Assembly: GCA_015488535.1 (NCBI GenBank)
Contig: WFNP01000043.1
Span: forward strand, 1 to 64,000
DNA from: Nitratifractor sp.
Lineage (GTDB): Bacteria > Campylobacterota > Campylobacteria > Campylobacterales > Sulfurovaceae
Reading direction: 5' to 3'
DNA: 64,000 nucleotides
In this document: positions 1 to 53,799 of the stretch, piece after piece
Numbering within the stretch: position 1 is the stretch's first letter
Layout: each line of letters opens with the position of its first letter
Translations under genes and position numbers: made by a program
Notes under the pieces: model-generated
The model's database searches: none
What the model saw: the letters and a program-made list of their open reading frames with translations, nothing else
What the model was told of the DNA's origin: nothing

Positions 1-967
1 CCAAACTCCAAGGTGGAGCAATTTCTTTACAAGCACCTTTGTTAGAGACAATAATTTTTTTATTATATTTTGCTGCTTCAACTAAAGGCAGACCAAATCC
101 TTCATATTTAGATAGGAAAAAGAGGGCTTCCATATTTTGATACATTATACTTAATTCATTATCAGGAATTTCACCAAGTATAATAATATTTTTCTTGTTT
201 TTAATATACTCTTCTAAATCAAAATAGAAATTTGTTTCATTACCGGCAATAAAAAAATAGCCATCATATAATTTTTTTTCATTCAAAATAACAAAAATAT
301 CTATCATTTGTTTTAAATTTTTATGCCTCCTTCTTTTTCCAACATAAAATAAATATCTTTTGTTTTTTATTGTCTTTATAAGTTCATTATCAGTATTCAT
401 ACTTGAGGAGCCTTCATTACTATAGCAGTTTGCATATTTTACTATTATCTTTTTTTTGTATTTTTTTCCAAAAAACTTTAAAATATCATTTTTTGTTGTA
501 TTTGATATTGTAATACAATTAGTTTTTTTCTTATTAAGATTCCAATATATTACAGCTTTAAAATATATTTTTTTAAAAAATGAAAGTTTTAATATATATG
601 ATTCCAATATTAGTGGGAAAAGATCAAAAATTACAAATATGGATTTTTTACGGACAAAAATTGGCATATCAAAATGAGGATAAAAATAAATATCACACTT
701 ACTACTATTGATATGCCTTGATACTGTAATATGTTGTTTGATACTTAAAATAGGTGCATCCAAATAGACAAAAATCTCTTTTGTATTACATATATTTTGT
801 ATTTGTATGAAAAGAGGATTTTTTGAATAATCATAATTCTTATTTAAAATAATCTCAAGTTTTCTATATTCATTGCTTTCAATTAACGATTTTAATACAG
901 AATATGAATACCTTGATAAACCGGAGAAATAATCCTCTAAATGTCTTGCATCATATATAATATACAA
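1..967 (-). CDS. GT4-family glycosyltransferase, 3' end cut by window edge
   Basis: Reads open on the minus strand from 967 to the left edge, so at least 322 residues. It is probably a retaining GT4 (group 1) enzyme adding a sugar during LPS O-antigen or capsule synthesis. Visible features are an N-terminal YDARHLEDYFSGLSRY segment, typical of GT4 starts that bind the acceptor; a VGKRRRHKNLKQMI segment starting the nucleotide-sugar domain; and the E-x7-E region (SKYEGFGLPLVEAAK) near residue 280. I chose TTG at 967 because AAAGGA lies just upstream and the conserved fold begins here. The frame stays open about 20 codons further upstream without an ATG. It lies downstream of the other minus-strand glycosyltransferases. 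The acceptor and sugar cannot be read from the sequence. Confidence 0.8.
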   Translation of the reverse strand, partial: MYIIYDARHLEDYFSGLSRYSYSVLKSLIESNEYRKLEIILNKNYDYSKNPLFIQIQNICNTKEIFVYLDAPILSIKQHITVSRHINSSKCDIYFYPHFDMPIFVRKKSIFVIFDLFPLILESYILKLSFFKKIYFKAVIYWNLNKKKTNCITISNTTKNDILKFFGKKYKKKIIVKYANCYSNEGSSSMNTDNELIKTIKNKRYLFYVGKRRRHKNLKQMIDIFVILNEKKLYDGYFFIAGNETNFYFDLEEYIKNKKNIIILGEIPDNELSIMYQNMEALFFLSKYEGFGLPLVEAAKYNKKIIVSNKGACKEIAPPWSL

Positions 968-1128
968 TATAATTCCTTTTTCATTATCAAAAGCAAAAGG
1001 TATTCGTCCAATATTCTGCTGTTAGTAACAATATCTAAACCTTTCCCTTTTAATAATGTATTAATTATCTTCTTTATACTACCTTCTACTAAAGAGGGTA
1101 TGATGTAAGAGACTTTAATATTTTTCAT
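937..1128 (-). CDS. Small ORF, possible decayed gene start
   Basis: A 63-residue ORF whose ATG overlaps the end of the upstream glycosyltransferase gene (stop at 1115), an arrangement suited to translational coupling. It runs 31 bases past the TTG start of the next glycosyltransferase in a different frame. I do not recognise the protein; its N-terminus (MKNIKVSYIIPSLVEGS) superficially resembles a glycosyltransferase start. Either it is a short coupling peptide, or the first part of an older gene was separated from the frame that continues below 967 by a frameshift. Real existence as a protein is uncertain. Confidence 0.3.
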   Translation of the reverse strand: MKNIKVSYIIPSLVEGSIKKIINTLLKGKGLDIVTNSRILDEYLLLLIMKKELYCILYMMQDI

Positions 1129-2182
1129 TTTCTAATGCTTTGTAAATTTTGCCCAACACGCTCTCTTCAGAGAACTCTTTTGCTTTTGATATACAAATAT
1201 CTCTGTATTTTTCACTATTTTCAAGAAGAGTAATAATATCTCTATAAAACTTATCATTTTCAGTATCTTCCAAATTAAATACTATACCGCTTTTTTCTCC
1301 GTATCCCTCTACAAACTCCGGGCAATATCCTGAGCTCTTCGTTACAATAGCAGGTATGCCTCTTGCATGGGCTTCAAGCAGAGTGGTGGCAAATCCCTCA
1401 TGATAGCTACTGATTACAAAACATTTGGCACTGTCGTAAACAAAGGGTAAATCTTTTCTATCCATCCATCCTCGTATCTCAACATCATTTTGCAGGTTAT
1501 AATGCTTCATAGTGTTTTTAATATTCTGCTTTTCTTCACCCTCTCCTACGATAAGTAGATTAAAATTACCATATTCACTATTTAGTTTGGATAGTATTTT
1601 TAAAAAGAGGGGAATATTTTTCTCTTTTGCCAATCGTGCCACAATTAAAAAATCGTAATTTTTTTTGCTTTGTCTGTCATACTCAAAAAACCAGTTAGAT
1701 ATGAAATTACCAATAAATACAACTTTCTCTTTACCAAAAATATCTATATTTTCTTTGTTTACACTGAAGATATGATCGCAAAACTTTGAGGCTTTTTTGA
1801 TAATCGTCATTTGAGTTCTTGTATGTCCAAGTCCTTGACCATTACCTCTATGCAGATACATATGTAATAATCCATAAACTTTAAATCCATAGAGTTTAAA
1901 GATTGGTGCCAGCCATAGAGAGGAGATATCGTTTAAAATTATTACTTTATAATTTTTTTTATACTTGTTTGCTACTTTAAAAGCTTCTAAAAGTCTGCCT
2001 TTATACGAAAACCCTTCTTCTAATATGACTGTATTACATTGAAAGTATTCCGGCATAGATGTAAAAATGGCACTCAAAAAGCCTTTTGTATTTAAAAATT
2101 TACATAACTCATCTATATATAGATGTCCTCCTCCCCACTGAGAGTATGCGGGTGAATATATCATAACAGTTTTATTTATCAT
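1115..2182 (-). CDS. GT4-family glycosyltransferase
   Basis: 355 residues, full length for a GT-B fold group 1 glycosyltransferase. The N-terminal domain has a WGGGHLYIDEL glycine-rich acceptor loop near residue 16. The C-terminal domain begins around FLIVARLAKEKN (about 180), continues with LLIVGEGEE, and carries the nucleotide-sugar motif YHEGFATTLLEAHARG with the two conserved glutamates near 263-271. It most likely transfers a hexose from a nucleotide sugar to a lipid-linked oligosaccharide on the cytoplasmic membrane face. Its start overlaps the stop of the GT2 gene upstream by four bases, so the operon is translationally coupled. Specificity is unknown. Confidence 0.85.
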   Translation of the reverse strand: MINKTVMIYSPAYSQWGGGHLYIDELCKFLNTKGFLSAIFTSMPEYFQCNTVILEEGFSYKGRLLEAFKVANKYKKNYKVIILNDISSLWLAPIFKLYGFKVYGLLHMYLHRGNGQGLGHTRTQMTIIKKASKFCDHIFSVNKENIDIFGKEKVVFIGNFISNWFFEYDRQSKKNYDFLIVARLAKEKNIPLFLKILSKLNSEYGNFNLLIVGEGEEKQNIKNTMKHYNLQNDVEIRGWMDRKDLPFVYDSAKCFVISSYHEGFATTLLEAHARGIPAIVTKSSGYCPEFVEGYGEKSGIVFNLEDTENDKFYRDIITLLENSEKYRDICISKAKEFSEESVLGKIYKALENEKY

Positions 2183-3096
2183 GGATTTTTCTTTCCCAAT
2201 ATTTTATATATAATTTTAGGCATAAATCTTACGATAAGATACGGTATTATGCTCCACGCTCCCAATCTGTACTCTTCTCCCGCATCTCTTGAAATCAACT
2301 CTTTGATATCAAATTGATATTTCCTGTTTTGATATGCCTTTTTGAGATATTCGGTAAAGATAAACTTTTTCAATTTTAGATTATTTGCTTTTGAGCATCT
2401 ATCTCTTTTTAGACCTTTTAGATATTTCGGTAAGTATCGCACTCCAATATCAGACAACATAGCCCCCTGGGTATCTGAAAGTTGATAAATCATACCTATA
2501 TAGTTACTGATTACAGCTTTACCTTCGCAAGATATCCTAATCAGCATATTTACATCTTCACCCATTTTTAAATCTTCAAAAAAACTCTCTATTTTTACTA
2601 TCATATCTTTTCTTAGCAATACACTCCCTATATGTATTAAAAATCGGTTTTTATAGAGCATATCGATATAATCAAGTGAGCTATACTTTATATCTTTTAT
2701 CTCTGATACTCTTTTGTGAGTGTTTTCTTCTTGAACGGTGACAATTCTGTTTGCAGATAGTATTATATCCGGATACAACTCAAAAGCTTTTATCATATAT
2801 TCCAAGTGTTTTTCTCTCCAAATGTCGTCTGCATCTATAAAAGCTATATACTTGCCTTTCGATTCGGCGATACCTCTATTTCTGGCTATGGATACTCCTT
2901 GGTTTGCTTGATGTATCACTCTAATTCTATTATCATTGAAGCTTTTTACAATCTCTATACTTTTGTCCGTTGAACCGTCATCTATGATTAATAATTCAAA
3001 ATCTTGAAATGTCTGATTCAAAACAGACTTCATTGTATCAGATACCCATTCTTGTTTATTATACAGAGGCATTATGATTGAAACAGTCGGTATCAT
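2179..3096 (-). CDS. GT2-family glycosyltransferase
   Basis: 305 residues with the GT-A fold of family 2. The N-terminus carries VSIIMPLYNKQEWV and then LLIIDDGSTDKS (near 36-47), the UDP-sugar pocket. The metal-binding DxD site is FIDADDIW near residue 89. The C-terminal third is basic and helical and ends with a hydrophobic IIPYLIVRFMPKIIYKIL stretch that could sit on the membrane. It is an inverting transferase for surface polysaccharide. It is separated from the preceding GT2 gene by one base and overlaps the following GT4 gene, so the genes are cotranscribed. Donor and acceptor cannot be assigned. Confidence 0.85.
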   Translation of the reverse strand: MIPTVSIIMPLYNKQEWVSDTMKSVLNQTFQDFELLIIDDGSTDKSIEIVKSFNDNRIRVIHQANQGVSIARNRGIAESKGKYIAFIDADDIWREKHLEYMIKAFELYPDIILSANRIVTVQEENTHKRVSEIKDIKYSSLDYIDMLYKNRFLIHIGSVLLRKDMIVKIESFFEDLKMGEDVNMLIRISCEGKAVISNYIGMIYQLSDTQGAMLSDIGVRYLPKYLKGLKRDRCSKANNLKLKKFIFTEYLKKAYQNRKYQFDIKELISRDAGEEYRLGAWSIIPYLIVRFMPKIIYKILGKKNP

Positions 3097-3097
3097 A

Positions 3098-4063
3098 TTA
3101 TTTGCTTCTTTTTAATACTCTGTATATCTTCACTGCATTGTGAAATCCCATACCGGATACAAGATAACCGAATTTACCCCTATAGGGTAATTTGTTGATA
3201 TCAAATCCCAGCTTCTCTATCTCTTTTTCAGCCTCTTTGACTATATGGGTGTGTATTCCGTAATGCTCTTTGACAAAGTTGGCATACATTATAGCCAGTG
3301 CCTCGTTGAGTTGTTTATTATTAAACTTTTCTATATTTTTTTCATACTTTTTCAGTGACTGAAGCACAGAGTATATAGCTTCTTCACTTCGTGATGCAGA
3401 TATCGAGTGTGAGCCTGTGCGACGGTAATATACCATTGTATTATCTGTCATTATTACTCTTTTTGCATTGAGCAAAACTCTTGAGAAAAACTCACCATCT
3501 TGATTTTTTTTAAGAGTCTCATCCCACTTTCCGGCTTTTTGAATCAGTTTCCTGTGTGTAAGCCATCCCATAACCACGCCGAAACCTCCACCGGACCATG
3601 AATCTCTCAGCCAATCCATTCCGCTTCTGTAAGATTTATCTATAGTTTGTTTGAAATATTTTGCATCTTCTATACTCTTTTTGAAATATGAAAACTTTGA
3701 TGAAAAGATTATATCGGGGGCATAGTTATATGTTTTGGCTATTTCTATTTGAGCAGATATTTTGTTTTCAGACATCAGGTCATCCGCATCTAGATATTGT
3801 ATATATTCACCTTTGGATTTCTCAAATGCCAAATTTCTGGCTCTTGGAGCTCCTGCGTTATTTTGGCAGTAAAATTTTATATTTTTATATTTATGGGCAT
3901 ACTCTTGCACAATCCTGGCACTACTGTCAGTAGAACCGTCATCTACGATAATTATCTCTATATTGCTATATGCCTGATTGAGACAAGACTCTATAGTCTC
4001 AGCTATAAATTCTTGACTGTTATATAAAGGTATCAATATTGATACCAACGGTTTTTTATCCAA
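3098..4063 (-). CDS. GT2-family glycosyltransferase
   Basis: 321 residues, a GT2 enzyme. VSILIPLYNSQEFI opens the Rossmann-like half, IIIVDDGSTDSSARI follows near residue 37, and YLDADDLMSENKI supplies the DxD metal ligands near 92. A GMDWLRDSW...FGVVMGWLTHRK segment and NQDGEFFSRVLL (the usual ED/DGEF-like acceptor-side motif) follow. It is the first gene of the minus-strand cluster in this window and lies about 440 bases from the divergent rpsJ gene, with a repeat element between. It probably acts in O-antigen or exopolysaccharide assembly; the exact linkage is unknown. Confidence 0.85.
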   Translation of the reverse strand: MDKKPLVSILIPLYNSQEFIAETIESCLNQAYSNIEIIIVDDGSTDSSARIVQEYAHKYKNIKFYCQNNAGAPRARNLAFEKSKGEYIQYLDADDLMSENKISAQIEIAKTYNYAPDIIFSSKFSYFKKSIEDAKYFKQTIDKSYRSGMDWLRDSWSGGGFGVVMGWLTHRKLIQKAGKWDETLKKNQDGEFFSRVLLNAKRVIMTDNTMVYYRRTGSHSISASRSEEAIYSVLQSLKKYEKNIEKFNNKQLNEALAIMYANFVKEHYGIHTHIVKEAEKEIEKLGFDINKLPYRGKFGYLVSGMGFHNAVKIYRVLKRSK

Positions 4064-44101: not shown

Positions 44102-45577
44102 TTATTTTTTCACCTTGTTTTTAAGCTCTGTAACAGATGGATATACAAATACTGTCTTTCTAAATACACTGATTTTTTTAGGGTCATCTACTGCATAAGC
44201 ATGGATTGTGATTGGAATAGGTACATCTTTTGCTTCATTCTTAGCTAAGATATCTTTTGTTTCCAATACAACAATTTTCTTTTTCTTATATTCAGAAGCC
44301 AAATGGAATGCCTCTTTTGGTCTTACAATTTTGATTTTATCATTACCTTGAACCTCAAAGTAATATTTATGAGGCTTATTGTCTGTATTTTGGAAAAGGA
44401 ATACATAATCATTCTCTACTCTTCCATCTGGATAAATTTTGTAGAGTCTTGTAGTTTTATTCACATTTAGAAGCATATGCTCTTTTTTGCTTCCCATAAA
44501 GAACAACATTCCCAAAACTATTGCCAAAACTGTAAAGTATGCTATAACTTTTGGTCTTAGATATCTGGTTTTTCCTTCATGTCTGAGAGCTTCTCTTTCA
44601 CTTGACCACTGCACCAATGAAGGTCTGCCATAAGCTGCTTGAACCTCTGTACAGGCATCTACACACTCCAAACAGTTTATACACTCAAGCTGTAACCCTT
44701 TTCTAATGTCAATATGAGTAGGACAGACTGTTACACATTTTTCACAGGCGATACACTCTGCATCAGGATTTTTTTCTAATAACTCTTTTCGTTTATGCAC
44801 AGCCTTGTGTCTTTCATTACCTTCACCTTCATATATTTGACCACCTCTGATTGGGTCATATACCGCCATAATGGTATCATCATCATACAATACTGATTGC
44901 ACCCTGCTGTATGGGCAGATATATACACAAAAGTTCTCTTTGATAAATACAACATCAGCAATTAAAAAGAGTGCAACACCTATCCAAAAGCCCATCAAGA
45001 CTGTATGGTTTGACGGATCTTGAATATATTTGAAAAAATCTTCCGGTGGGACGAAATACCATAAAAAGTCAGCAGCTGCGATAAATGCCAAAATAGACCA
45101 TATAGCTATTGCTATAATCTTTTTGGTCATATTTTCTGGTTTGCTTAAATCAACCTCTTGCTGTTTATTTGAGATTCTTTTATATAGATGAAGAAGTTTA
45201 GTCTCAATCAAATCTCTGTAAAGGACTCTAAAGATTGTCTGCGGACATGCCCAACCGCACCATACTCTACCACCTACCGATGTAAGAGCAAAAATTCCAA
45301 GGAATAGTAGCATCAACAAAAACGGCATTAGATAAAGCTCTTGCATATCAAATCGAACAAAGAAGAAGTGTAACTGTTTATGGTCAAAGTTTAATAAGAA
45401 GAAGTGATTCCCATTTATTCTAATCCAAGGCAGTATCAATGATATGATTGATATTGCCACATACATCCAGTATCTTTTTATTCTATATGGTATCCAACCT
45501 TTAAGATACTCCTTTGCATTTACTTTTTTCTCTTTTGGTTTTTTCAGATTCTCATTTTCGAGCGTAGCTTCTTGCAT
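44102..45577 (-). CDS. ccoG: cbb3 oxidase accessory protein CcoG (RdxA/FixG)
   Basis: 491 residues. Integral membrane iron-sulfur protein needed for copper handling in cbb3 cytochrome oxidase assembly. Membrane helices at about 38-56, 78-98, 155-175 and 190-208; Cys motifs GRVWCGWACPQTIF near 105 and CVYICPYSRVQSVL near 217; two 4Fe-4S ferredoxin sites CIACEKCVTVCP (near 275) and CINCLECVDAC (near 295). The C-terminal periplasmic domain is IG-like. The ATG shares a base with the stop of the upstream regulator-like gene, so the two are coupled. Structural cbb3 genes are not in the window. Confidence 0.93.
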   Translation of the reverse strand: MQEATLENENLKKPKEKKVNAKEYLKGWIPYRIKRYWMYVAISIISLILPWIRINGNHFFLLNFDHKQLHFFFVRFDMQELYLMPFLLMLLFLGIFALTSVGGRVWCGWACPQTIFRVLYRDLIETKLLHLYKRISNKQQEVDLSKPENMTKKIIAIAIWSILAFIAAADFLWYFVPPEDFFKYIQDPSNHTVLMGFWIGVALFLIADVVFIKENFCVYICPYSRVQSVLYDDDTIMAVYDPIRGGQIYEGEGNERHKAVHKRKELLEKNPDAECIACEKCVTVCPTHIDIRKGLQLECINCLECVDACTEVQAAYGRPSLVQWSSEREALRHEGKTRYLRPKVIAYFTVLAIVLGMLFFMGSKKEHMLLNVNKTTRLYKIYPDGRVENDYVFLFQNTDNKPHKYYFEVQGNDKIKIVRPKEAFHLASEYKKKKIVVLETKDILAKNEAKDVPIPITIHAYAVDDPKKISVFRKTVFVYPSVTELKNKVKK

Positions 45578-46257
45578 TATTTTCCTTTCTGTATTGGTTT
45601 TAAATTGTTATCAAATGTGCAACTAAGTTGCATATCTTTTTGCTCTACGGTTTTAATTCTGTTCTTAGCTTCTTGTAGCCATGAATCATCAACTATCTTT
45701 TTTAGTTGCCTCGATTCGATATAGTCCTTTAAAGAGCTTCGGCTTATACCTAACTCTCTGGCCAAAGCACTTACACTTTTGCCATTTTTAAGTCCTTCCA
45801 GTATCTCAGAGAGATAAATATCAAACTTAGATGAGGATTTTCGTCCCTTCGGTCTGCCTACACGAGTGTCTGTTTTGCTCTTTTCTTCATCACTTTTGAG
45901 TTTCATAAGAATAGGCAATATTTCAGACAATCCTGTTTGGGCAGTAACCTCTATATGATTGATGGCGATATGGAGTGATATATCTCTGCTAAGCATACAA
46001 TTTATCACCATAATAGCCTCTTGCATATCATAGGATAAGACTTCTATTCTCTCAACTATGATAATATTACCACCGCTTAGAGAATGGATAAACTCTCTAA
46101 ATCGTCTCCTCTCTTCAAGTGGAAGCTTTGAATTTTCGAACTCTATCATCTCATCATCGAGGGTCAATCCTTTCTCTTTGGCATACGATATAATCGTAGC
46201 TCTTTGAGACAGAATTGAATCATTGCCCCAGAGCTGTCTCATGACTGCATATGTCAA
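45577..46257 (-). CDS. Resolvase-fold protein with lost catalytic residues, HTH
   Basis: 226 residues. Its layout matches small serine recombinases: an N-terminal domain (1-130), a basic GRPKGRKSSSKF hinge near 138 and an HTH SVSALARELGISRSSLKDYI near 163-182. The key residues are missing. Where resolvases have Y-x-R-V-S with the nucleophile serine, it has YAVMRQLWGNDS; where they have LDRLSRS, it has IEVLSYD. It is therefore probably a DNA-binding regulator and not a recombinase. It starts at TTG 46257 with GGAGTGAGGA upstream, and is translationally coupled to ccoG, so it may control that operon. Confidence 0.6.
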   Translation of the reverse strand: MTYAVMRQLWGNDSILSQRATIISYAKEKGLTLDDEMIEFENSKLPLEERRRFREFIHSLSGGNIIIVERIEVLSYDMQEAIMVINCMLSRDISLHIAINHIEVTAQTGLSEILPILMKLKSDEEKSKTDTRVGRPKGRKSSSKFDIYLSEILEGLKNGKSVSALARELGISRSSLKDYIESRQLKKIVDDSWLQEAKNRIKTVEQKDMQLSCTFDNNLKPIQKGK

Positions 46258-49745: not shown

Positions 49746-49774
49746 TTGACATTTGTATAAAACTTGCCTATAAT
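49746..49774 (+). promoter_or_regulatory. Consensus sigma-70 promoter of the tRNA cluster
   Basis: TTGACA (49746-49751), 17-base spacer, TATAAT (49769-49774). A perfect consensus, unusual in this window, where other promoters show only the -10. The transcript should begin near 49781, just before tRNA-Pro, and could cover all five tRNAs. Confidence 0.85.
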
Positions 49775-49791: not shown

Positions 49792-49868
49792 CGGAGTGTA
49801 GCGCAGTCTGGTAGCGCACCTGGTTTGGGACCAGGGGGTCGAAGGTTCGAGTCCTTTCACTCCGACCA
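49792..49868 (+). tRNA. tRNA-Pro (TGG)
   Basis: 77 bases with encoded CCA. Acceptor CGGAGTG/CACTCCG, anticodon loop TTTGGGA giving TGG, T-loop GGTTCGAGTCC. First of five tandem tRNA genes. Confidence 0.95.
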
Positions 49869-49888
49869 TTATTTTGGATTAAAACGGT

Positions 49889-49966
49889 GGTGGATATAGC
49901 TCAGCTGGTTAGAGCACCAGATTGTGGCTCTGGGGGCCGTGGGTTCGAATCCCATTATCCACCCCA
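49889..49966 (+). tRNA. tRNA-His (GTG)
   Basis: 78 bases including the encoded G-1 typical of tRNA-His, which faces C73. Acceptor GTGGATA/TATCCAC, anticodon GTG in ATTGTGGCT, CCA encoded. Confidence 0.95.
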
Positions 49967-49995
49967 TAATAAAAATAAAATTTTTAATAAAATGT

Positions 49996-50072
49996 GCGCC
50001 AGTAGCTCAATTGGATAGAGCATCAGACTTCGGATCTGAGGGTTAGGGGTTCGACTCCTCTCTGGCGTACCA
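49996..50072 (+). tRNA. tRNA-Arg (TCG)
   Basis: 77 bases. Acceptor GCGCCAG/CTGGCGT, anticodon loop CTTCGGA giving TCG, CCA encoded. With the GCG isoacceptor at 55689 it covers the CGN codon box. Confidence 0.93.
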
Positions 50073-50099
50073 CCCTAACCCATATTGTTGCGTAAATAT

Positions 50100-50176
50100 G
50101 CGTCCATAGCTCAGCTGGATAGAGCACTCGCCTTCTAAGCGAGCGGTCTCAGGTTCGAATCCTGATGGGCGTACCA
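50100..50176 (+). tRNA. tRNA-Arg (TCT)
   Basis: 77 bases. Acceptor GCGTCCA/TGGGCGT, anticodon loop CTTCTAA giving TCT for AGA/AGG codons, CCA encoded. Confidence 0.94.
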
Positions 50177-50184
50177 CCTTTTAA

Positions 50185-50269
50185 GCGGATGTGGTGGAAT
50201 TGGTAGACACGCCAGATTTAGGATCTGGTGCCGTAAGGTGTGGAGGTTCGACTCCTCTCATCCGCACCA
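50185..50269 (+). tRNA. tRNA-Leu (TAG)
   Basis: 85 bases, with the long variable arm of tRNA-Leu (TGCCGTAAGGTG). Acceptor GCGGATG/CATCCGC, anticodon TAG, CCA encoded. Last of the cluster; nine bases after tRNA-Arg(TCT). Confidence 0.95.
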
Positions 50270-50376: not shown

Positions 50377-53013
50377 ATGTTAAAGAAAATATTTTTGGCT
50401 ATATCGGCTTTTTCTATGCTGTTTGCGACAATACCTACACAAGAGAGTGTGACCAAACTCTATATAGCTACATTTGACAGAGCTCCTGACCATAACGGAT
50501 TATTGTATTGGGTATATGATTCAGGATTGAGTATAGAAGGAATTGCTAAAAGTTTTTTTGATCAGCCTGAAACAAAAGCTCTTTATGGAGATAAAGTTTC
50601 CAATTATGATGAGTTTATAGACAGTGTATATACTCATCTTTTCAAAAGAGAGCCTGACAGTGCCGGTAAAGAGTATTGGAAAGAGGAGTTGTCAAATAAA
50701 AGAGTTCCAGTATCTACCTTTATATTGGCTGCGATGAATGGTGCTTTGGGTAAAGATGCAAATATTTTGAAAAATAAAACAACTGTAGGATTGATTTTGG
50801 CAAATCAAAAAGATTTTAATGAAACAGTGGCAAAAGAAGCAATGAAAGAGGTTACTGATGACCCCCAATCTATTCAAAAGGTAATTACAAAGGTGAAGCC
50901 TCTAATAAAAGAAGATAACATTGATGATATAAATAATACAATTATTACTAATAGTAAAAATCTAAAAGTATCTATTATCAGTAAAAATGATTGGAGTAGT
51001 GGATTTTGTAATGATATAAATATTACAAATACAGGCTCTTCACCTGTAATATGGAAAGTAACTTTTGACAGTGGAGGAGAAATATATAACTCCTGGAGTG
51101 CAGATTTTGATACTAGTGAGGCTCACAAAACAACAATTACCGGATTGGATTGGAACAAAGAGTTAAAAGCAGGGGAGACTACAACAGTAGGATACTGTGC
51201 CAAGAAAGATTTTGCCTCCATGCCTGAAGCGACTGTCGGTGACGGGCTGGAGTTGGATTCCAAACTCATCTCCAAATGGGATACAGGCTTTTGTAGAGAA
51301 GTAACTGTAAAAAATATATCAGACAAAGAGATTGTATGGAGTGTGGATATCAATGCCCAAGCTCCTGTATATACTCTATGGAGTGCATTATATACTCAAG
51401 ACAAAGATACTAATATATTGCATGTCAAAGGACTTGAGTGGAATAAGGTACTAAAGCCTGATGCTTCTACAAAATTTGGATTTTGTATAAATACAAAAAC
51501 AGATGATATCTCAACACAAGATACTCAAGACAATAATACCCATACTGATAATAGTGATACTTCAAAAGATAATGATGATAACAATATTTCAACGAATAAA
51601 GATGAGAGTAACAGTAATACTGAAATATCTGATAATAGTGATAATACCAAACCTGCTGACAGTGACATACCTACAAATAACAAAACAAGTGGATTTGGAA
51701 GCAAAGAGTATGAAGAGGCACTGAGACTCTCTTACCAATTTTATGAAGCCCAAAGAGCAGTGGGACCATTTCCCGTAGTTACATGGAGAAAAGCAGGACC
51801 AAAAGATGATGGCAAAGATGTAGGAGCAGACCTCTCAAAAGGTTGGTATGATGCAGGGGATACTGTGAAATTCAATCTGCCTATGGCTTACTCTACAAGT
51901 ATATTGCAGATGGGTATCTTAGAGTTTGAAGATGCTTACAAAGAGAGCAATTTGTATGATTATGCAATATCTCAGATTAAATATACACTGGATTACTTTC
52001 TAAATGCCTATAATCCGGGCAGTGATTTAAACAGTCCGGCTGATGATAAAATATATTATCAGGTAGCAGACCCAAATGCTGACCACCGTTTTTGGGGACC
52101 ACCACAGGATATGGATATGCCAAGACCTACATATACCTGTGATGCTTCCAACAGATGTAGTGAAGTAGCAGGTGAAATGAGTGCGGCACTCGCCGGAGGA
52201 TATCTTATATTCAAAGATACTAATAGGGCTTATGCTCAAAAACTGCTCGATACAGCCAAAAGATTATATAAATTTGCTACCACGTATGAAGGAAACAATG
52301 GTTATACAGCAGCCAATGGTTTCTATTCATCATTTAGTGGATACAATGACGAACTGGCATGGGCTGCAACCTGGCTATATAAGGCTACAGAAGATGAGAA
52401 ATATCTAAGTGATGCTAAAAAATATTTTGATAAAACAAATCCGTCTGGTTGGGCTTTGACCTGGGATAATCCGGGTAATGCAAACAGTGTATTGCTGTAT
52501 GAGCTTACAGGAGACAGAAAATATGCCTCTGAAGCAGAACAAAATATTGACAATGCCATGCATAAGCAAAAAAGAACAAAAGGCGGATTGGTATTTTATG
52601 ATGCATGGGGTTCACTCAGATATGCTGCAAATGAAGCATTTGTAGCACTCTCTTATGCCAAATTATTACCAGATGGCAATAGTAAGAAAAAAGAGTATAT
52701 AGATTTTGCCAAAAGTCAGATAGATTATATACTCGGAGACAATCCAAGAAAAAGCTCTTATATTGTAGGTTATGGTCCAAATCATCCGATAAATCCGCAC
52801 CACAGAGCTGCACATGATTCAAAAGAGCATAATATAGATACACCAAAAGATAATAGATATATTTTATATGGAGCATTGGTGGGTGGTCCAAAGAGTGCTG
52901 ATGATTTTGATTACAAAGATGACAGACACGACTATGAGGCTAATGAGGTAGCCTGTGACTATAATGCCGGATACAGTGGAGCTTTGGCAGGGCTTATTGA
53001 ATTGGCTCAATAA
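50377..53013 (+). CDS. Secreted GH9 cellulase with DUF4214 and two CBM2-like domains
   Basis: 878 residues. Domains: signal peptide (1-18); DUF4214-like region (about 20-130, with YIATFDRAPDHNGLLYWV and VYTHLFKREPDSAGKEYW); two CBM2-like cellulose-binding domains (about 196-276 and 292-374), each with NDW/KWD-type and NSW/TLW tryptophans and a first/last Cys pair; an Asp/Asn/Ser/Thr-rich linker (about 375-437); and a GH9 catalytic domain (440-878). GH9 residues seen: DAGD at 492-495 (base), NPHHRAAHD (substrate His) and the acid Glu near 857 in NEVACDYNAGYSGALA. It should hydrolyse internal beta-1,4-glucan bonds outside the cell. Single-gene unit beside a tRNA cluster; no other cellulolytic gene nearby. 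Transfer from another phylum is likely. Confidence 0.88.
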   Translation: MLKKIFLAISAFSMLFATIPTQESVTKLYIATFDRAPDHNGLLYWVYDSGLSIEGIAKSFFDQPETKALYGDKVSNYDEFIDSVYTHLFKREPDSAGKEYWKEELSNKRVPVSTFILAAMNGALGKDANILKNKTTVGLILANQKDFNETVAKEAMKEVTDDPQSIQKVITKVKPLIKEDNIDDINNTIITNSKNLKVSIISKNDWSSGFCNDINITNTGSSPVIWKVTFDSGGEIYNSWSADFDTSEAHKTTITGLDWNKELKAGETTTVGYCAKKDFASMPEATVGDGLELDSKLISKWDTGFCREVTVKNISDKEIVWSVDINAQAPVYTLWSALYTQDKDTNILHVKGLEWNKVLKPDASTKFGFCINTKTDDISTQDTQDNNTHTDNSDTSKDNDDNNISTNKDESNSNTEISDNSDNTKPADSDIPTNNKTSGFGSKEYEEALRLSYQFYEAQRAVGPFPVVTWRKAGPKDDGKDVGADLSKGWYDAGDTVKFNLPMAYSTSILQMGILEFEDAYKESNLYDYAISQIKYTLDYFLNAYNPGSDLNSPADDKIYYQVADPNADHRFWGPPQDMDMPRPTYTCDASNRCSEVAGEMSAALAGGYLIFKDTNRAYAQKLLDTAKRLYKFATTYEGNNGYTAANGFYSSFSGYNDELAWAATWLYKATEDEKYLSDAKKYFDKTNPSGWALTWDNPGNANSVLLYELTGDRKYASEAEQNIDNAMHKQKRTKGGLVFYDAWGSLRYAANEAFVALSYAKLLPDGNSKKKEYIDFAKSQIDYILGDNPRKSSYIVGYGPNHPINPHHRAAHDSKEHNIDTPKDNRYILYGALVGGPKSADDFDYKDDRHDYEANEVACDYNAGYSGALAGLIELAQ

Positions 53014-53106: not shown

Positions 53107-53799
53107 ATGGCTTTGTATGATAGAGACTTTGCTCAGAGTGTGCCAAGAGAAGATAATACTTCCTTGAGCCTGTCTCGTGTGGAGTTTTTGAAAAAGACTT
53201 ATCAACTACTTGGTGCCAGTATGCTCACAGCTGCACTTGGGGCATATTTGACTATGCCGTTTGCTCATGCTGTGTATGAGGCAAGATGGCTTATATTCGG
53301 AGCAGAATTGTTGGTGTTGTTTTTTGGACTAGGCATGTCAAGAGGTAAACCGGGCTTAAATCTGTTTATGCTCTTTTTATTTACATTTTTGACAGGTGTA
53401 TCACTGGTGCCTCTGTTTGCTTCACTTATTGGTATGGGTAAAGGTGCAGTAATTGGTAATGCATTTTTGATGACATCAGTGCTATTTGGGGCATTGAGTC
53501 TGTTTGCTATTAATAGTAAAACAGATTTTTCAAGTTGGGGTAAACCACTGTTTATCACTATGATAGTGATTTTTGTAGCATCTCTAATCAATATATTTAT
53601 ACTCAAAAGCCCTATGATGCATGTATTTATTACTGCCGGTATATTGTTGTTGTTTGGAATATTTACAATATATGATACTCAAAATATAGCAAATGGTGCA
53701 TATGAGTCTCCGGTAGATGCGGCTGTATCTTTATATATTGATTTTCTTAATATGTTTACAGCTATTTTACAGTTGCTTGGTCTTTGGGGAGATGATTAA
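53107..53799 (+). CDS. Bax inhibitor-1/YccA family membrane protein
   Basis: 230 residues, seven hydrophobic helices after a polar N-terminus (about 1-28). Helix pattern and acidic end (PVDAAVSLYIDFLNMFTAILQLLGL) match BI-1/YccA (TMBIM) proteins, which in other organisms leak calcium or modulate FtsH. The conserved C-terminal Asp pair region IYDTQNIANG is present near 190. Function here is unknown. The next gene begins four bases after its stop. Confidence 0.85.
   Translation: MALYDRDFAQSVPREDNTSLSLSRVEFLKKTYQLLGASMLTAALGAYLTMPFAHAVYEARWLIFGAELLVLFFGLGMSRGKPGLNLFMLFLFTFLTGVSLVPLFASLIGMGKGAVIGNAFLMTSVLFGALSLFAINSKTDFSSWGKPLFITMIVIFVASLINIFILKSPMMHVFITAGILLLFGIFTIYDTQNIANGAYESPVDAAVSLYIDFLNMFTAILQLLGLWGDD

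Follow-up and report, generated by a model that had tools for sequence, protein, structure and literature searches.

Thermobifida fusca Cel9A (E4; PDB 1js4/4tf4) is a GH9 cellulase whose accessory modules lie C-terminal to the catalytic domain, with a CBM3c behind GH9 (theme B, processive GH9-CBM3c). The CBM2a of Cellulomonas fimi Cex/Xyn10A (PDB 1exg) has three exposed tryptophans (W17, W54, and W72) and a cysteine pair that joins the two ends of the domain. DUF4214 (Pfam PF13946) occurs on secreted roseobacter proteins, including an S8 peptidase. AMOR_GH9A is reported to be a secreted, hyperthermophilic GH9-CBM3 cellulase from a hydrothermal-system metagenome (PMC6731012); the protein studied here is of the CBM2 type and resembles it by description. 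We examined a window of 64 kb, the whole stretch of DNA analyzed, which lies within a 69-kb contig of a 1.87-Mb Campylobacterota genome that is rated 100% complete and has a single GH9.

Module architecture and catalytic residues

The initial annotation described a secreted DUF4214-CBM2-CBM2-linker-GH9 protein with intact catalytic residues, and this prediction was borne out by the open reading frame, by Pfam, and by alignment with Cel9A. The order from the N to the C terminus was a signal peptide predicted by eye, DUF4214 (Pfam E = 4.5e-14), two CBM_2 stretches (Pfam E = 1e-24), linker, and GH9 (residues 445 to 870; Pfam E = 1e-131) (Table 1). The GH9 profile scored 440.8 bits against a cutoff of 27.7, and model positions 1 to 444 of 444 were covered. 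The best solved relative of the catalytic domain was Cel9A/E4 (E = 1e-110), whose D55, D58, and E424 aligned with D492, D495, and E857, respectively; all catalytic residues are thus common to the two enzymes, and most other substrate-binding residues of E4 are also retained. In contrast to Cel9A, the window protein carries its modules N-terminally and stops at the GH9 domain, with no CBM3c detected behind it by Pfam. Furthermore, the near-invariant H59 of the DAGDH motif is replaced by Thr496 (Gly in two other family members), and two conserved tryptophans are lost (E4 W75 to Met and W291 to Ala). These substitutions remove no catalytic residue and, judged from the alignment, may tune, alter, or weaken activity. 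Comparison of GH9 pairs gave omega values of 0.07 to 0.21, with dS near saturation in the pair formed with the same-genus metagenome-assembled genome (MAG) G044, and these values indicated that the enzyme is under purifying selection.

Table 1. Positions of the GH9 gene, its encoded modules, and its neighbors in the window
Feature	Position	Strand	Remarks
Complete GH9 cellulase gene, 878 aa	50377..53013	+	ORF exact; intact
Predicted signal peptide MLKKIFLAISAFSMLFA	50377..50427	+	Read by eye
All-helical N-terminal module, two DUF4214 stretches	50428..50940	+	Profile match, predicted structure
CBM2 no. 1; aromatic triad W206/W240/W259; Cys pair C211/C274	50971..51231	+	Pfam match 50977-51213
CBM2 no. 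2; aromatic triad W301/W335/W355; Cys pair C306/C370	51238..51498	+	Profile and alignment
Low-complexity Asp/Asn/Ser/Thr linker, residues 375-440	51499..51696	+
GH9 catalytic domain; predicted water-activating pair D492/D495, acid E857	51709..52986	+	Profile, structure-relative alignment
tRNA array Pro-His-Arg-Arg-Leu, directly upstream of GH9 gene	49792..50269	+	Neighbor, not a functional part
Sigma-70-type promoter, perfect match, upstream of tRNA array	49746..49774	+	Neighbor
Bax1-I family membrane protein gene, downstream of GH9	53107..53799	+	Neighbor

Both CBM2 modules matched the Cex CBM2a and contained the equivalents of its three tryptophans; they thus combine a Pfam CBM_2 match with a planar Trp triad, as in type A (CBM2a) modules. 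They are short (∼80 aa), and the canonical N- to C-terminal disulfide, which is common in CBM2 but not required, is absent; the cysteine pair is instead internal (GFC...GYC). This internal pair was common to nearly all CBM2s of the family, in which the Trp triad was mostly kept. The second module additionally matched ChiC (2rtt). GH9 enzymes include non-cellulose specificities, and chitin is common at vents. These three points would fit a main substrate other than cellulose (chitin, chitosan, mixed-linkage glucan, or xyloglucan), but endocellulase-type GH9s, e.g., E4 and 2xfg, are the nearest relatives among both solved structures and outgroups, and we regard such a substrate as distinctly unlikely.

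The DUF4214 stretches head a cellulase, unlike those of the roseobacter carriers, and plasmid homologues of the module include the S8 peptidase. The top matches of its predicted fold were phycobilisome linkers at nonsignificant E values of 0.19 or worse, obtained with a poor model (pLDDT of 59), and this likeness is at most a hint. Overall, the enzyme family is a known one, and its modest new points are the DUF4214 head and the CBM2s, which are short and have their cysteine pair in another place.

The tRNA array and the history of the gene

As the initial annotation stated, the GH9 gene adjoins five tRNA genes. The array had been read as a marker of transfer, and recent horizontal transfer into it from outside the phylum would fit both this position and the patchy presence of GH9 in the family. 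It would also fit the arrangement in G047, a GH9-negative genome of the same genus and sister in the RpoB tree (98/98), in which the same rplT-tRNA array is followed by a DNA ligase gene (ligA, named by eye from sequence) and not by the GH9 and Bax1-I genes found in the window genome. A weak serine-recombinase-like gene about 4 kb away (window 45577-46257, minus strand) can be counted on the same side; its Resolvase match had an E value of 9e-6, the Mpi invertase model fell far below its cutoff, and activity is doubtful. Against transfer, the GC content (0.364), GC3 (0.262), and codon bias of the GH9 gene were ordinary for the window, and the composition check proposed in the initial annotation gave native values. 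Neither a duplicate of the tRNA-Leu end nor an att-like repeat was present in the window, and no integrase was detected among the ten neighboring proteins scanned. A 28-nt repeat at 50150/55739, examined as a candidate for tRNA-end integration, consisted of the ends of two tRNA-Arg genes.

The GH9 gene of G044 was on another contig with other neighbors, and no tRNA was found within ∼1.5 kb on either side of the GH9 genes of relatives, G044 included. The copies of relatives sit in other housekeeping contexts than the window copy, with a local context shared within each of the groups G012/G013/G014, G055/G056, and G149/G150. In the comparison of tRNA-flanking synteny, the array itself recurred in a GH9-negative genome, and the GH9 genes of relatives lay elsewhere. 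The gene may have reached its present spot by rearrangement or by within-family transfer, and the tRNA neighbors are no evidence of a genomic island.

Within the family, 15 of the 175 genomes carried GH9; they fall in 6 of 11 genera, and the window's genus contributes 2 of its 13 genomes. A sample of 397 genomes from the whole phylum yielded 8 with GH9, a single one of them from outside the family. This rarity, together with an ATP-citrate lyase in the host genome, upheld the earlier view that a modular GH9 cellulase is unexpected in this group. The family matches in G062 and G172 and three extra copies in G149 were remote GH9s of a different type. In the GH9 tree, the family's 13 full-length Cel9A-type copies grouped in a single clade (100/100) that excluded the outgroups tested, a limited sampling of Bacteroidota, Bacillota, Alphaproteobacteria, Actinomycetota, Betaproteobacteria, and PDB sequences taken from among the matches listed plus one outside class searched. 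Within this clade, the window GH9 grouped with that of G044 (97/96), and identities were 50 to 64% within the family and 42 to 46% to the outgroups tested. The named relatives closest by gene, among the matches listed, were Campylobacterota MAGs. A closer donor could possibly be hidden by the limited outgroup sampling.

Forcing genus monophyly on the GH9 tree was disfavored in AU tests (three genus tests, raw P values of 0.0017 for g11, 0.002 for g4, and 0.021 for g8). The same three genera are clades in the RpoB tree, which is partly unreliable (wrong frames for G041 and G043; deep nodes unresolved). The disagreement of the GH9 tree with these genera suggests a long-standing family gene that was passed between members or lost in some of them. 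Close homologues at the same locus in most relatives, the pattern of an ancestral gene, were not seen; presence was patchy and loci differed. The phylogeny did not support a recent import, all 13 full-length family copies forming one clade. Recent import from outside was rejected by the tree with the outgroups tested, the composition, and the locus comparison, and we consider it highly improbable. The GH9 gene is an old, family-resident, patchily distributed gene, between a recent import and an ancestral gene kept at one locus.

Two C-terminal partial GH9 copies were also observed at contig ends (L098 and L099) of a genome from another family, G482. One was 60.7% identical to the window GH9 and nested in the family clade; either between-family transfer or misbinned contigs could explain these copies.

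Cellulose-associated proteins in relatives

The DUF4214-CBM2-GH9 layout was found with two CBM2s in G000 and G044 and with one in G055 and G056, and the hydrophobic N termini of the G044, G055, and G056 proteins aligned with the predicted signal peptide of the window protein. Other layouts in the family were CBM2-CBM2-GH9 (G024), GH9-CBM2x3 (G052), and CBM2-CBM2-aBig_2-GH9 (G012). A protein of 1,916 aa in G149 (within L133:9076-17511), with a counterpart in G150 (L134), combined GH9 and CBM2 with fn3, cytochrome c, and PSD/PSCyt domains (DUF1587/1595/1592/1588); the GH9-CBM2-cytochrome c-PSD fusion of G150 was assigned by sequence. Downstream of the fusion lie a DUF1552 gene and then a flavocytochrome c sulfide dehydrogenase-like gene, and G172 (L259) encodes a similar protein without GH9. 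In G044, a GH12 endoglucanase-family domain with a surface Ig-like domain (L122:3-3335, minus strand) is encoded 4.6 kb from GH9.

A conserved module of ∼400 aa was observed on the minus strand at L126:8008-9207, L260:1431-2612, L262:2395-3579, and L261:2348-3532. The copies shared 50 to 54% identity and the invariant motifs MEPEFNK and NEYHLG. In G160 the module is fused after GH9, whereas in G052, G012, and G014 it follows CBM2-CBM2-aBig_2. Searches of Pfam, NCBIfam, and PDB gave no significant match, and the plasmid search gave no match. The module is a candidate for a new cellulose-active module. It is a speculative and rather improbable reading that this family of presumed autotrophs possesses its own cellulose-attack kit, comprising the GH9 lineage, the ∼400-aa secreted module as a possible new enzyme family, and cytochrome fusions with a possible role in linking the attack on polysaccharides to electron transfer.

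Host metabolism and proposed function

ATP-citrate lyase was found in the host genome and in 19 of 20 family genomes tested, which makes reverse-TCA autotrophy of the host plausible. G044 (L019) was nearest among the matches listed and carries the sample name 4561-384, a name that also appears in the record for a study of deep-sea vent deposits. The earlier statement that other carbohydrate genes are missing held for the nearest genes on both sides, which are housekeeping genes, but not for the window or the relatives, given the glycosyltransferases at 1115-4063 and the GH12 near the GH9 of G044. These glycosyltransferases (group 1 and family 2) form a run within window 2-4063 (minus strand) that adjoins a ribosomal protein operon; the ORF beside it, at 2-967, had a GC content of 0.232, far under the window mean.

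The preferred reading, to which we assign a probability of about 0.8, is that the gene product is an exported, Cel9A-type, inverting GH9 beta-1,4-endoglucanase, held by its CBM2s on foreign cellulose and belonging to a family-resident lineage rather than a recent import into the tRNA array. Intact catalytic residues, CBM2 Trp triads of the kind that binds crystalline cellulose, the N-terminal signal sequence, and purifying selection are what the gene itself offers for an endoglucanase. The protein would be exported by Sec, with DUF4214 serving either as a spacer or for association with the cell surface and the CBM2 pair keeping the enzyme on insoluble cellulose. GH9 would then cut chains, with D495, together with D492, activating water and E857 serving as the acid. 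Likely substrates would be plant or algal detritus and tunicate or microbial-mat cellulose, on which an accessory enzyme could aid attachment, loosen matrix, or free oligosaccharides, rather than start a complete cellulose-growth pathway. The lineage would have spread through the family by internal transfer and loss.

The initial annotation had proposed use on host or biofilm cellulose or on the cell's own polymer; foreign cellulose is the likely part of this proposal. Remodeling of a cellulose-like polymer of the cell, as by BcsZ in bcs operons, would suit a single orphan secreted endoglucanase in a genome with family-2 glycosyltransferases. However, no canonical cellulose synthase was found: no CelA/BcsA-type match in the host genome exceeded 26 bits (best match, 25.4 bits against a cutoff of 699.1), and GH9 shares no operon with genes for cellulose synthesis. 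A pair of crystalline-type CBM2s is also unusual for periplasmic BcsZ-like enzymes, and own-polymer remodeling appears quite improbable.

True mixotrophy, in which the endoglucanase would feed cellodextrin uptake and catabolism and so support growth, is somewhat unlikely. On its side are the GH12 of G044, further CBM2 proteins in G052, G012, and G014, and a coastal enrichment on rice straw in which Sulfurovum had risen to 45% of the community at 6 months, a correlation only (PMC10469889). On the other side, cellobiose phosphorylase (GH94) was found in 0 of 20 genomes searched, and the one GH3 of the host was closest to a NagZ-type beta-N-acetylhexosaminidase, below the cutoff of that model, and also occurs in GH9-negative relatives. 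A complete cellulose-growth pathway was not found in the host by the searches for GH9, GH94, and GH3.

For the preferred reading, that of a resident endoglucanase acting on foreign cellulose, polysaccharide attack is a persistent, patchy accessory trait and no freak import in a Campylobacterota family that carries a reverse-TCA marker. It thus becomes possible to test for mixotrophy or particle association in bacteria that are generally regarded as chemolithoautotrophs. Stronger leads than the window enzyme come from the relatives, whose cellulose-associated proteins and modules are odder.
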